Assembly (NCBI RefSeq): GCF_017352215.1
Contig: NZ_CP071444.1
Coordinates: 372,001-436,000, forward strand
From: Alkalibacter rhizosphaerae
Lineage (GTDB): Bacteria; Bacillota; Clostridia; Eubacteriales; Alkalibacteraceae
Length of the DNA: 64,000 bases
Direction of reading: 5' to 3'
The notes under the pieces were generated by a model that saw only the letters and a list, made by a program, of their open reading frames with translations, made no database searches and was not told the origin of the DNA. The position numbers were made by a program, and so were the translations under genes. Every line of letters starts with the position of its first letter. Position 1 is the stretch's first letter. Positions 29,044 through 44,422 of the stretch are shown here, piece after piece.

Positions 29044-29404
29044 GTTGGTGGCGTGCAAGCCAGATGATCGCGTGAACGATCCCGCAAGGGTGTTCATGAG
29101 GAAAGTCCGAGCTCCACAGGGCAGGGTGCCGGGTAACCCCCGGTGGAGGCAACTCCAAGGAAAGTGCAACAGAAAGGAAACCGCCTTGCGATGCAAGGTA
29201 AGGGTGAAAGGGTGAGGTAAGAGCTCACCGGCGGCCAGGTAACTGTCCGGCTATGTAAACCCCACCTGGTGCAAGACCAAGTTAGGACGCGAAGCAGTAG
29301 CCCGCTGTGTCCAATGGTAGGTCGCTTGAGCTTTTCGGTAACGGAAAGCCTAGATAGATGATCATCTAATACAGAACTCGGCTTATAGGCTTGGACGCTC
29401 CAAC
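29044..29404 (+). ncRNA. rnpB: RNase P RNA, type A
   Basis: The conserved core GAGGAAAGTCCGAGCTCCAC is at about 29098, followed by AGGGCAGGGTGCC and GGTAAGGGTGAAAGGGTGAGG; the 3' region holds ACAGAACTCGGCTTAT. The termini pair as helix P1: GTTGG and GCGTGCAAGCC at the 5' end with GGCTTGGACGC and CCAAC at the 3' end. The layout and length (about 360 nt) fit the ancestral A type rather than the Bacillus B type. It processes tRNA 5' ends. Confidence 0.96.
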
Positions 29405-40761: not shown

Positions 40762-40826
40762 CTTTTGAAATCTTAAGTTTCGCTTAAGTTTCAAAAGAAA
40801 AAACCCCTTTTTAAAAGAAGGGGTTT
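40762..40826 (-). terminator. tandem hairpins after the permease gene
   Basis: Nearest the permease stop is AAACCCCTT / AAGGGGTTT (40801-40826) with a TTTCTTTT tail on the − strand, a plausible terminator. Just beyond it is a 15-bp stem CTTTTGAAA(T)CTTAAG / CTTAAGTTTCAAAAG (40762-40797) with a TTTCG loop but no T tail, of unknown role. Confidence 0.7.
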
Positions 40827-40838
40827 ACCATTTTTTCA

Positions 40839-42203
40839 TTACAGTAAAAACAGGCTGACAATAAACATGGCTATAAATCCGATGAAAACCGGAACAATGT
40901 TCCTCTTGGCCAAATCCAAAGGATTCACATTACAGATGGCTGCCACTGGGATGATGGCCCATGGAATGATGGTGCCTCCACCTACCCATATGGTGGTCAA
41001 CTGACCCATGGCCGTAAGAACTTCCTTATTGATATCAACAGCCAAAGAGAAGGTGTTGGCCAGGGATCCAACCAGGGGCAGACCGGAAAAACCAGATCCA
41101 TCCAATCCGGTTATGGCCCCTGTCACCATTTGGATCAACGCAACTGGGATCTTTGACAATGTGACGTTGTTTGCCAAGAACAAGCCAAAGTCCGACAACA
41201 GTCCTGTAGCATCTGGTCCCAAAATGGATTTTGCCATTCCTTCGCTTCCTAGGAAAAAGAACGCACCAATGACGATGACCGGCGCAAAGATCCGGATGCC
41301 AAAAACGAATCCTTCCTTGATGTAATCGGTTATTTTCTCCAGACAGTTGACGGGATTATGCTGCACAATAGCTACAAAGCACATGATCAGTACTGCAGTA
41401 CCACCGACAAGGGCGGTTGCATCCCCTCCGCGAAGCTGGTATTTGTACATGATGATGATGTTCAAAACAAAGGCCAGCGGCGTCATTACGGCAACCAGGT
41501 ATACGCCCCAGGTAGCTTTCTCTTTCTTTTCTGACAGATCTAAAGGTTGATCCAACACCGGCATGGTTTTGATTTCCTTTCGCATCATATAGTAACTCAC
41601 TGCCACAGTGACGATACTCATGACCAGCCACAAGGGCAGCAAGGATTTGCTCAGCATGAAGGTATCTTCGATTCCCGCAGCTTTTGCTGCAATCGCAGGA
41701 GCCCCCTGGATAAAAAAGTCGCTGGAAAGAGCTATGCCGTGTCCAAAGATGTTCATGGCAACTGCTGCCCAAATGGGTGGCAGCCCCGCCTTCAAGGCGG
41801 CAGGCAACATGATGGCCCCAACAAGTGCGACTGCCGGCGACGGCCAGATGAACCAGGAAAAAAACAACATGACAAAACCCAGACCAAAATATGCGATGGT
41901 TGGATTTCTCATGATTTTTTTGATGGGCATGATCATCAATTCATCGGCTCCGATGTCTCGAAGGGCACTGGACATGGCAATGACCAGGGAGATGACTAAA
42001 ATAATGCCCCAAAATTCCATTCCTGCTGCGATCAACGCATTAAAAATAACCTGGATCGCTGTGACCACGCTTCCGGAGTACATCCACCCTACTATGAAAA
42101 TCCCGAAAATGCAGGGTAGCAAGGTATCTTTTCGAAACCCCATGGTAATGATCACGACGACGACCAATGCTATATAGACCCAATGCAACGCTGTTAATTC
42201 CAT
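40839..42203 (-). CDS. ion-transporter-superfamily permease under lysine riboswitch control
   Basis: A 454-residue integral membrane protein with about 11-12 hydrophobic segments and re-entrant-like stretches (WPSPAVALVGAIMLPAALKAG and TGLDGSGFSGLPLVG). This resembles transporters of the ion-transporter (IT) superfamily, such as GntP, DcuC or NhaC relatives, but I cannot name the family. It lies 21 nt after the FAD oxidoreductase, with which it shares a promoter and lysine riboswitch. Transporters controlled by this riboswitch usually import lysine, so lysine or a related diamine is the first substrate to test. Confidence 0.75.
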   Translation of the reverse strand: MELTALHWVYIALVVVVIITMGFRKDTLLPCIFGIFIVGWMYSGSVVTAIQVIFNALIAAGMEFWGIILVISLVIAMSSALRDIGADELMIMPIKKIMRNPTIAYFGLGFVMLFFSWFIWPSPAVALVGAIMLPAALKAGLPPIWAAVAMNIFGHGIALSSDFFIQGAPAIAAKAAGIEDTFMLSKSLLPLWLVMSIVTVAVSYYMMRKEIKTMPVLDQPLDLSEKKEKATWGVYLVAVMTPLAFVLNIIIMYKYQLRGGDATALVGGTAVLIMCFVAIVQHNPVNCLEKITDYIKEGFVFGIRIFAPVIVIGAFFFLGSEGMAKSILGPDATGLLSDFGLFLANNVTLSKIPVALIQMVTGAITGLDGSGFSGLPLVGSLANTFSLAVDINKEVLTAMGQLTTIWVGGGTIIPWAIIPVAAICNVNPLDLAKRNIVPVFIGFIAMFIVSLFLL

Positions 42204-42224
42204 GGTGTTTATCCCCTCTTCCTT

Positions 42225-43511
42225 TTATATGTGCAAGTCTTTGGAAAATACTTCTGTCAAACCGGTTGTTTCGACTCGTGCAGTGATGACGTTCACATCC
42301 GTCGTGTATAAGCCCTTTTCTTTCATTCGGTCAAAATACACAGAACCGGAAAAGGTATATTTTTTTCCAATACCTTCTATAGTATGGACCATTTCTCCTA
42401 CATGGTGAATGGCATCACCAATAGCGAGACTCTCCGGTATTCCCAACAATTCCATTCCCAATGCCTGTCGGACACTGTTGTGTCCTGCCAGCATTCCGGT
42501 CACCATGGCCTCCGTGTGACCTACCAGGGGTCCAGCCTTTTCTCCTCCACAAAACAAGTTTTCCAGACCTACGACCTGCAGTGCATCTGTACGAGGTGCC
42601 ATGTTGAAATAGCGCATGGAATTTCCCTTGCCTCCTGAATATGGATCTTCATAACGGGCATTCTCGCATCCCGGGATCTTCCTCAAAGTTTCCAGCTTGT
42701 AAAACGGTGTCATCAATTTTGCATGTCCTGTGTCCAATAGCACCAGGTTTTCTTTGAACGCATCCAATGCATATTGCTGGCATGCCTTCTGGTCCAGGTG
42801 ATCTTCCGTCAGTTCCACGGGAACAGGAACTACTGCTACTCCCGTTTCATTCAACAGATCTTGAATTTCTCGAGACAAGGATTCTTTGTATAATTTACAG
42901 GAACCACTCATTGCTCCCATAGATCCATCCTTCTTCTGTCCGGTCATTTCCTCGATTCCTGCCAACCCCGCCAAGGAAATTCGCCCTCCATAACTTGGGC
43001 AACGTAGAATGCACATGGCACACCCATTGCCATATTTATTGCAGTTGTTCATGGGACCCGCTGTTCCAGTGGCATCCACAAAAACATCTCCGGCGAATAC
43101 CCTACCTCGATCATCTTGCACTTCCATGATTCGATTCCCTGTCTTTGTGATCTTGTTTACTCGGGATTCGAATACCAGTTCAACACCCATGTCCCGCAAC
43201 AGATCCGTTACGGCCACCGGCGTAGTGGCGATATCATAAAGACTGGCATGATCATGCCCTGGAAATGAAATCTTTTTGTGTCTTGCATTGGAATCACATA
43301 GGCTAAAAAGCTTACCACCGCCCATTGCCATCATTTCTTCTGTTGCTGTGAATCGGCCATTGTTGCGCATGATCCCGCCAACCAATCCAGTGCCCAGCAG
43401 CATATCCGTACGCTCCAACAACGTTACCTTTGCTCCTGCTTGGATGGCGCCGACTGCTGCAGAGCAACCAGCCCAACCGCCTCCAACTACGACTACATGC
43501 TTTTGATCCAT
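42225..43511 (-). CDS. FAD-dependent oxidoreductase under lysine riboswitch control
   Basis: A 428-residue flavoprotein. The N-terminal VVVVGGGWAGCSAAVGA is the dinucleotide-binding fold. VFVDATGTAGPMNN is the second FAD contact, and LFCGGEKAGPLVGHTEAMVTG the C-terminal one. A cysteine-bearing segment NKYGNGCAMCILRCP near residue 170 recalls the GidA/TrmFO group. The substrate is unknown. It is the first gene after the lysine riboswitch, with AGGAGG upstream of its ATG, and is cotranscribed with the permease. An amine or amino acid oxidase/reductase role linked to lysine is inferred from regulation only. Confidence 0.82.
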   Translation of the reverse strand: MDQKHVVVVGGGWAGCSAAVGAIQAGAKVTLLERTDMLLGTGLVGGIMRNNGRFTATEEMMAMGGGKLFSLCDSNARHKKISFPGHDHASLYDIATTPVAVTDLLRDMGVELVFESRVNKITKTGNRIMEVQDDRGRVFAGDVFVDATGTAGPMNNCNKYGNGCAMCILRCPSYGGRISLAGLAGIEEMTGQKKDGSMGAMSGSCKLYKESLSREIQDLLNETGVAVVPVPVELTEDHLDQKACQQYALDAFKENLVLLDTGHAKLMTPFYKLETLRKIPGCENARYEDPYSGGKGNSMRYFNMAPRTDALQVVGLENLFCGGEKAGPLVGHTEAMVTGMLAGHNSVRQALGMELLGIPESLAIGDAIHHVGEMVHTIEGIGKKYTFSGSVYFDRMKEKGLYTTDVNVITARVETTGLTEVFSKDLHI

Positions 43512-43538
43512 CTGATCCTCCTATTTTTTGCCGATTGT

Positions 43539-43750
43539 AAAAAAAAGCAATTGGTTTCGCACCAATTGCTTGTAAACACCAAACAAGATAGCACTTCACC
43601 TGATCCGGTGACAATTGCATAGCTCTTAACCCTGCAACCAGATGGAAACGTTGGAGCCGTTTCCTCTTCGGTGCCCTCCCCTTTTGTCTTTCTTCGCAGA
43701 TTTCTCCAAATCTCCAAAAGACTACTCATGTCAAGCACGCCTCTATCGAT
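43539..43750 (-). promoter_or_regulatory. lysine riboswitch (L box) with terminator
   Basis: On the − strand the aptamer starts GATAGAGGCGTGC, then ATGAGTAG, AAAGGGGAGGGCACCGAAG, ATTGTCACCGG and closes with GTGCTATC, whose CTATC pairs with GATAG as P1. These are the conserved blocks of lysine riboswitches in the same order. A terminator follows: AAGCAATTGGT / ACCAATTGCTT with eight T. Lysine binding should favour termination, shutting off the FAD oxidoreductase and permease. This accounts for most of the 338-nt gap upstream of the FAD gene. A perfect palindrome TTATGATATCATAA (43772-43785) lies just upstream. Confidence 0.93.
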
Positions 43751-43787
43751 ATTTTTTTAAATATAATGTCATTATGATATCATAAAC

Positions 43788-43824
43788 GCAAAAAAGAAGT
43801 CAAATATATTCATTTGACTTCTTT
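43788..43824 (-). terminator. terminator after the small membrane protein gene
   Basis: On the − strand AAAGAAGTCAAAT / ATTTGACTTCTTT with a 6-nt loop, followed by TTTTGCG. It separates the gene upstream from the riboswitch transcript. Confidence 0.75.
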
Positions 43825-43849: not shown

Positions 43850-44317
43850 TCATATTAGACTGTTTAGTTTGTTTATTGTTTCATTGGTAAGCTCCGGTAC
43901 ATGCAAGGTTAGAACTTTCAGTTTTTGAGATGCATTTTTATATCCGATCACCACATAATGGACCTTGTCCTTCCACATTTTCGCAAGGAATCGTTTGACC
44001 AAGGACTTGCTGTCAATGGGCCCGTTTTGCATATCCACTGTGACCCGAACGATGTTTCTTAAAGGAATGTGGTATTGGGTTGCTTCACTGCACAACAACA
44101 ATCCATCCGGCTCCACATAAAACTCCAATTCTTCCTGAATTCGTATGCCATGATGCATATAAACCACGATGGGTTCATCATTGGATAACAGTTTTTCTCC
44201 GCTTTGCAATGCTGTTTCCTTCTGCGAAAAAAAACGTTCAGACATAACCGATTCTCTCCCCCATTGGATCAGAAAGATCAAACCGACTCCAGCAATAAAA
44301 AGAAACAGGTATATCAT
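43850..44317 (-). CDS. hypothetical single-pass membrane protein
   Basis: A 155-residue protein that I do not recognise. One transmembrane helix at residues 2-20 (YLFLFIAGVGLIFLIQW) is followed by a soluble domain with alternating strands (EEPIVVYMHHG-like region, YHIPLRNIVRVTVDM, VHYVVIGYKN, LKVLTLHVPEL), suggestive of a pleckstrin-homology-like beta fold. I start at the ATG at 44317, which has AAGGAG upstream, rather than one seven codons earlier. An extended -10 (TGGTATAAT, complement of 44361-44369) precedes it. Confidence 0.7.
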   Translation of the reverse strand: MIYLFLFIAGVGLIFLIQWGRESVMSERFFSQKETALQSGEKLLSNDEPIVVYMHHGIRIQEELEFYVEPDGLLLCSEATQYHIPLRNIVRVTVDMQNGPIDSKSLVKRFLAKMWKDKVHYVVIGYKNASQKLKVLTLHVPELTNETINKLNSLI

Positions 44318-44422
44318 TGTTCTTTCACTCCTTTTCATGAAGAAACAACTTTATACCTGTATTATACCAAACTTTTAGTACTTAAATTGTTAATTGTTAA
44401 ACATTTTTTCATGTATACTGTA

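Follow-up and report, generated by a model that had tools for sequence, protein, structure and literature searches.

A lysine riboswitch precedes a flavoprotein-permease gene pair in Alkalibacter rhizosphaerae and related genomes

The stretch of Alkalibacter rhizosphaerae DNA analyzed here (64,000 nucleotides; contig NZ_CP071444.1, positions 372,001 to 436,000 of the forward strand, hereafter the window) carries on its (-) strand a lysine riboswitch followed by two genes, which encode a flavoprotein, designated FLAVO, and a permease, designated PERM. A lysine riboswitch was found before FLAVO in eight genomes belonging to three families. It is tentatively suggested that the two genes form a lysine-repressed operon for acquiring and converting lysine or a close relative. 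An uptake-and-conversion module of this kind, which had been proposed in a preliminary description of the sequence, is the best present explanation because the riboswitch is conserved, because it is associated with the permease, and because a sister branch of the flavoprotein occurs in an aminomutase-type context. The proposal is partly supported, in that a genuine riboswitch is found repeatedly in front of this gene, and it remains the favoured reading.

Results and discussion

The leader and its recurrence before FLAVO

A cmscan search matched the leader at 43753-43581 (-) to the Rfam family RF00168 with 100.6 bits (gathering threshold 30, E 1.4e-25) over the whole model (1-182). The lysine aptamer previously placed at 43587-43750 falls inside this match, and judged by its sequence the element is of the standard lysine-sensing class. 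The intrinsic terminator that had also been described for the leader was located at 43571-43545 (-), where an 11-bp stem followed by a U run (-14.4 kcal/mol) would serve as the attenuator.

The riboswitch lies directly before FLAVO in the window genome (G000) and in genomes G090, G132, G081, G179, G391 and G392, and across an assembly gap in G140, which was placed in the same genus as the window genome and in which riboswitch and FLAVO sit at two contig ends. FLAVO was detected in 39 of 391 genomes of the class (E 1e-20), and these 39 genomes contain 77 lysine riboswitches, six of which precede FLAVO (G000, G090, G132, G081, G179 and G140); G391 and G392, of the same family, represent two further cases. 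For PERM, 42 of the 398 genomes sampled from the phylum gave a match (E 1e-100).

A FLAVO tree of 63 rows, obtained from 67 members minus the duplicate genomes L033, L034 and L181 and the fragment L045, and not containing the second FLAVO of G391, is composed of three main branches, designated A, K and E, with six rows outside them. Branch A (14 rows, support 95/94) includes the window and all eight riboswitch-bearing FLAVO genes, branch K (17 rows, 96/89) is its sister, and branch E (26 rows, 100/99) is represented by genes of which 23 adjoin PRK05802 and none adjoins PERM. Within branch A, the riboswitch accompanies eight of the nine PERM-linked members and none of the five unlinked ones (Fisher p 0.003), where the riboswitch link of G140 and the permease link of G081 are drawn across contig ends; in G081, FLAVO runs off a contig end and a permease is truncated where another contig stops. 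The one PERM-linked member without it is G347, whose genome yielded no lysine riboswitch. Furthermore, riboswitch and PERM differ together between the sister pair G179 and G110 (98/93) and, with weaker support, between G391 plus G392 and G319 (86/87).

A permease tree, also of 63 rows, was built without L033, L034, L181 and rows of less than 400 residues, except for two G081 pieces (L135), and its nine riboswitch rows correspond to eight genomes. In this tree, 27 permeases that are not beside FLAVO form one clade (100/98). A second group, of 34 rows, takes in the permeases of A type and K type, which fall into two distinct sets inside it (A, 14 rows, 100/98; K, 17 rows, 92/96). No T-boxes or other amino-acid leaders were found at gathering threshold before non-FLAVO permeases in 35 stretches. 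As to whether homologous pairs elsewhere are under unrelated signals, a question raised in the preliminary description, the outcome is mixed: in none of 15 scanned stretches with branch K FLAVO genes does a lysine riboswitch lie directly before the pair, but many of these FLAVO genes are accompanied by a gene for a KamB-type aminomutase reactivase, which again suggests diamino-acid chemistry.

Two side observations concern lysine riboswitch loci. The contig ends of G140 (L133:1-334, and L076 at the end of contig C26) are by eye what we take to be the 5' and 3' ends of a group II intron, apparently inserted between the riboswitch terminator and FLAVO. A further genome carries two tandem lysine riboswitches, 92 bases apart (G354:C18:527184-527585).

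Direction of control

In the usual OFF layout of such leaders, the terminator arm is separate from P1 and the antiterminator touches P1, whereas in a simple ON design the 5' arm of the terminator overlaps the 3' strand of P1. The P1 3' strand and the terminator 5' arm are separate in all eight leaders, with a gap of 14-146 nucleotides, and in seven of the eight the best match of 7-10 nucleotides to the terminator 5' arm overlaps the 6-nucleotide P1 strand by 1-4 nucleotides. For the window, a pairing search proposes an antiterminator whose 5' side, TTGTTTG (43580-43586 (-)), touches the P1 3' strand and whose 3' side, CAAGCAA (43566-43572 (-)), overlaps the terminator 5' arm. The number of equally good antiterminators among 2000 shuffles was 6 for G081, 11 for G132, 22 for G090, 48 for G140, 137 for G392, 221 for the window, 364 for G391 and 1033 for G179. 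The geometry of the leaders is not decisive, but it favours an OFF switch as the likely mode of control.

FLAVO, a flavoprotein with an invariant cysteine motif

FLAVO (42225-43511 (-)) is a flavin adenine dinucleotide (FAD) flavoprotein of 428 residues with an MnmG/GidA-like fold. Its earlier designation as GidA-like is upheld at the level of family and fold, given matches to Pfam GIDA (108.9 bits, gathering 22.1) and FAD_oxidored, and given that its predicted model (predicted local distance difference test, pLDDT, 83.1; predicted template modelling score, pTM, 0.88) aligns with GidA at a VIA-align Z of 32.1 (root-mean-square deviation, rmsd, 3.3 over 381 residues) and with TrmFO at a Z of 25.1 (256 residues). 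The designation does not extend to function as MnmG, since FLAVO scores 25.6 bits against TIGR00136 (curated cut-off 524.85) and the true MnmG of the window genome is encoded separately (G000:C1:1385712-1387550, 912 bits). TrmFO was likewise rejected as an identity for FLAVO, at 31.9 bits against TIGR00137 (curated cut-off 428.65).

A CX6CX2CX3C motif (42999-43043 (-)) provides four candidate [4Fe-4S] ligands, namely C157, C164, C167 and C171, each of which is present in 62 of 62 aligned FLAVO rows, as is C244; these counts refer to rows of at least 400 residues, with three duplicate genomes kept. Since the motif is invariant, FLAVO is likely to be an FAD enzyme that holds a [4Fe-4S] cluster. 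The model has a pLDDT below 50 at residues 152-174, so that the geometry of the cluster is unreadable and we infer the cluster from the cysteines. PRK05802 was considered as a redox partner for branch A and rejected, as it exceeds the cut-off in only four of 14 tested genomes and does not do so in the window genome; the four genomes in question each carry FLAVO directly beside PRK05802.

PERM, a permease with an ion-transporter-like fold

PERM (40839-42203 (-)) comprises 454 residues, and its gene lies in tandem with that of FLAVO on the same strand, at a spacing of 21 bases. It returned no Pfam match (E 0.01), no NCBIfam match (E 0.1) and no credible sequence relative in the PDB. Its predicted model (pLDDT 81.9, pTM 0.79) resembles NaS1 (Z 23.1, rmsd 4.3, 412 aligned residues), ArsB (Z 22.7) and the TRAP M subunit (Z 20.2), and as modelled PERM folds like carriers of the ion-transporter (IT) superfamily. 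The previous label of an ion-transporter-type permease therefore stands for the fold, with a Z of up to 23.1 to such carriers, but not for the sequence. All 64 rows share W120, P121, D162 and P169, and 59 of the 64 have D368, while no residue distinguishes FLAVO-adjoining permeases from the others at 75% in each group. An OLE RNA (527 bits) was observed at L175:1878-2506, on the same stretch as a permease homologue.

No match of PERM to the families of known lysine transporters (LysP, LysW/NhaC, YvsH and LysXY) was obtained (Pfam E 0.01, NCBIfam E 0.1). The view that neither gene has an assigned role in lysine metabolism was borne out as far as family searches and the papers listed in literature searches go, and among the papers listed no title or abstract start names the FLAVO-PERM pair or DUF6917, a family discussed below.

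The aminomutase-type cluster of branch K

Eleven of the 17 branch K FLAVO genes belong to an uncharacterised cluster that encodes, with varying completeness, RidA, DUF6917, a pyridoxal phosphate (PLP) enzyme, a B12 protein and KamB; most of these eleven also adjoin PERM. Of ten KamB candidates in the cluster seven were tested, and five exceed the NCBIfam cut-off of 210 (L036, 231; L174, 254; L177, 255; L184, 250; L183, 229), the other two falling below it (L182, 209; L185, 191). The apparent lack of FLAVO and of the PLP enzyme gene at L185 in the neighbour table may be due only to the choice of a long antisense open reading frame.

The B12 protein of the cluster (L036:7537-9366 and relatives) has approximately 600 residues and an N-terminal B12 domain, and it is nearest to the beta subunit of lysine 5,6-aminomutase (profile E 3.4e-18) in that domain only. 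Beyond the B12 domain, no PDB match was found for one member at E 10 and none that was credible by profile. As an observation in its own right, this protein is possibly a new type of aminomutase.

In three branch K genomes, G564, G760 and G722 (L212, L210 and L211, respectively), a lysine riboswitch is located some 6.5 kb upstream, before lysA, with the intervening genes and the cluster on one strand. By eye, lysA is followed by what we take to be scpA, scpB, ytfJ and dacF and then by the start of the cluster, and the conserved lysA-scpAB-dacF neighbourhood may be the cause of a riboswitch upstream at this distance. The riboswitch of branch A and the cluster of branch K both hint at lysine-type chemistry.

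Lysine metabolism in the host genome

The window genome (2.45 Mb) was found to possess two lysine riboswitches, the second of which precedes a lysine biosynthesis operon that we read by eye as asd-dapA-dapB-dapD/H-lysC, while lysA is located elsewhere (461 bits, cut-off 297.9). In view of this second riboswitch before biosynthesis genes and of lysA, the FLAVO-PERM pair appears to supplement a genome that already makes lysine. Another lysine riboswitch precedes lysine biosynthesis genes in all eight riboswitch-FLAVO genomes. The idea that the pair supplies a missing step of lysine biosynthesis is unsupported, the biosynthesis operon and lysA being present. Lysine 5,6-aminomutase was also sought in the window genome and not found over the cut-off: the best match to its beta subunit reached 37 bits against 280, and only a B12-domain match was obtained; no beta subunit over 280 bits was found in six tested genomes of the window's family.

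Proposed role and alternatives

Under lysine scarcity, pairing between the segment immediately 3' of P1 and the terminator 5' arm would let the operon be transcribed, whereas bound lysine would hold P1, allow the terminator to form and lower expression. PERM, as an IT-superfamily-like carrier, would import lysine or a lysine-like amino acid, upon which FLAVO would perform a redox step, most likely at a carbon-nitrogen bond, because FLAVO of the sister branch is accompanied by a RidA-family imine hydrolase and by genes of aminomutase type. As no lysine 5,6-aminomutase was found in the window genome, the product would there enter the lysine pool. A wider proposal, which is speculative and on the whole somewhat unlikely, is that a new carrier family and an FAD/[4Fe-4S] family act as one unit on lysine or on an oxidised, D- or N-modified lysine; this unit would serve lysine-repressed scavenging in some anaerobes and, in others, would stand at the start of a so far unrecognised B12-dependent aminomutase pathway involving RidA, DUF6917, the PLP enzyme and KamB.

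Several findings weigh against uptake and conversion of lysine by a repressed operon. With regard to repression, the antiterminator of the window, taken by itself, lacks significance (equalled in 221 of 2000 shuffles), the G179 leader is without a contiguous antiterminator touching P1, and the leader of the window genome's own dap operon is without the OFF layout (1173 of 2000 shuffles as good); as the dap leader is expected to be OFF, geometry is no sure guide, and OFF control is likely rather than proved. With regard to the genes, FLAVO occurs with neither PERM nor riboswitch in five branch A members and in branch E, so its chemistry need not concern lysine, and the table of eight of nine against none of five counts related genomes. 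The 34-row permease group is weakly supported (81/47) and contains nine permeases that are not beside FLAVO, and 35 stretches whose permeases have no FLAVO neighbour yielded no lysine riboswitch. Canonical lysine 5,6-aminomutase beta is encoded elsewhere in three of six tested branch K genomes (G501, G502 and G506), and the substrate in that branch may therefore not be lysine itself. Finally, a third lysine riboswitch of G391 (L213) precedes a transporter gene, presumably, from inspection by eye, that of an amino-acid ABC transporter.

Part of this evidence would fit an arrangement in which PERM alone is lysine-related, as a plain lysine importer, and FLAVO is an old genomic neighbour that catalyzes an unrelated reaction and is carried along in the operon. 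The riboswitch in branch A indeed tracks the permease rather than FLAVO, and FLAVO is widespread without PERM; yet the two have been kept together in two branches, one of them inside the aminomutase-type cluster, and we consider this arrangement fairly unlikely. Lysine might also act merely as a signal, with PERM serving the balance of pH or sodium and FLAVO that of redox state. NhaC/LysW genes under lysine riboswitches have been read in such terms (PMC5584792; PMC11477304), and the fold of PERM is IT-superfamily-like, but family searches place PERM in no Pfam family, those of NhaC included, and the sister pairs lie with amino-acid enzymes, which makes a signalling role improbable.

If the riboswitch were instead an ON switch, the pair could start lysine breakdown in the manner of kal/kce, for which a riboswitch survey (PMC5584792) reports that lysine riboswitches exert positive control in some Clostridia, Fusobacteria and Thermoanaerobacter. 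The location of the sister branch within the aminomutase-type cluster agrees with breakdown, but the six tested genomes of the window's family are without a lysine 5,6-aminomutase beta subunit over 280 bits (G000, 37 at best). The terminator 5' arm is moreover clear of the P1 3' strand in all eight leaders, unlike in the simple ON design, and an ON switch is accordingly rated as quite unlikely. Least probable, and very doubtful, is a place for FLAVO, perhaps that of an alternative reductase, within the biosynthesis of lysine or diaminopimelate: control by the same ligand is common to FLAVO and the dap operon, but what appear by eye to be asd, dapA, dapB, a dapD/H-like gene and lysC are already united in one operon with lysA elsewhere, and the riboswitch is missing in six of 14 branch A members.

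A lysine-repressed uptake-and-conversion operon thus remains the tentatively favoured reading. The riboswitch names a likely metabolite class for two families without an assigned substrate, and it represents a testable handle on a permease outside Pfam and on a flavoenzyme whose cysteine motif is unusual, both of which are thereby tied to the uncharacterised aminomutase-type cluster.

Other features of the locus

A promoter-like site, TTGACT-18-TATCAT with a TG before the -10 element (43774-43803 (-), 10/12 matches), is situated just upstream of the aptamer; it is weak alone, as promoter-like sites are no commoner than in shuffles (5 found, shuffle mean 6.6). A ribosome-binding site for FLAVO, AGGAGG, was read from the sequence at 43517-43522 (-), and an intrinsic terminator at 40801-40826 (-) closes the two-gene operon. 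Directly upstream of the riboswitch is an open reading frame of 162 residues without a Pfam match (43850-44338 (-)), after which a terminator-like site was noted at 43824-43793. The window also contains a class A RNase P RNA (29052-29401 (+), 304 bits).

Comparison with known systems

A survey of 468 lysine riboswitches lists, in the part consulted, besides biosynthesis genes, LysP/GabP, LysW, YvsH, LysXY, oligoendopeptidase F, kal/kce and unannotated 'hypothetical' genes, and the words FAD, flavoprotein and oxidoreductase are absent from its main text (2017, PMC5584792). The riboswitches preceding transporter genes (lysP/gabP, lysW/NhaC, yvsH and lysX-lysY) belong to the same RNA class, RF00168, as the window leader, and in these cases as in that of PERM a transporter stands in a lysine regulon beside a biosynthesis operon. 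The window operon differs from them in that a flavoprotein gene comes first and in that PERM is outside those transporter families by family search. Carriers of the IT superfamily (DASS/INDY, NaS1, ArsB and the TRAP M subunit) are like PERM in fold, with a Z of approximately 17-23 over 340-410 residues, but not in sequence, as no match was obtained in Pfam, NCBIfam or the PDB.

MnmG and TrmFO share the FAD fold with FLAVO; however, FLAVO, with 428 residues, aligns with MnmG only up to about residue 460 of the latter, and unlike MnmG (GidA) and TrmFO it carries the CX6CX2CX3C motif and scores far below both family cut-offs. The branch K cluster resembles kam gene clusters in having KamB as well as a B12 protein that is nearest to lysine 5,6-aminomutase beta, and it differs from them in that this protein has approximately 600 residues, of which the N-terminal part forms the B12 domain and the remainder has no credible PDB match.

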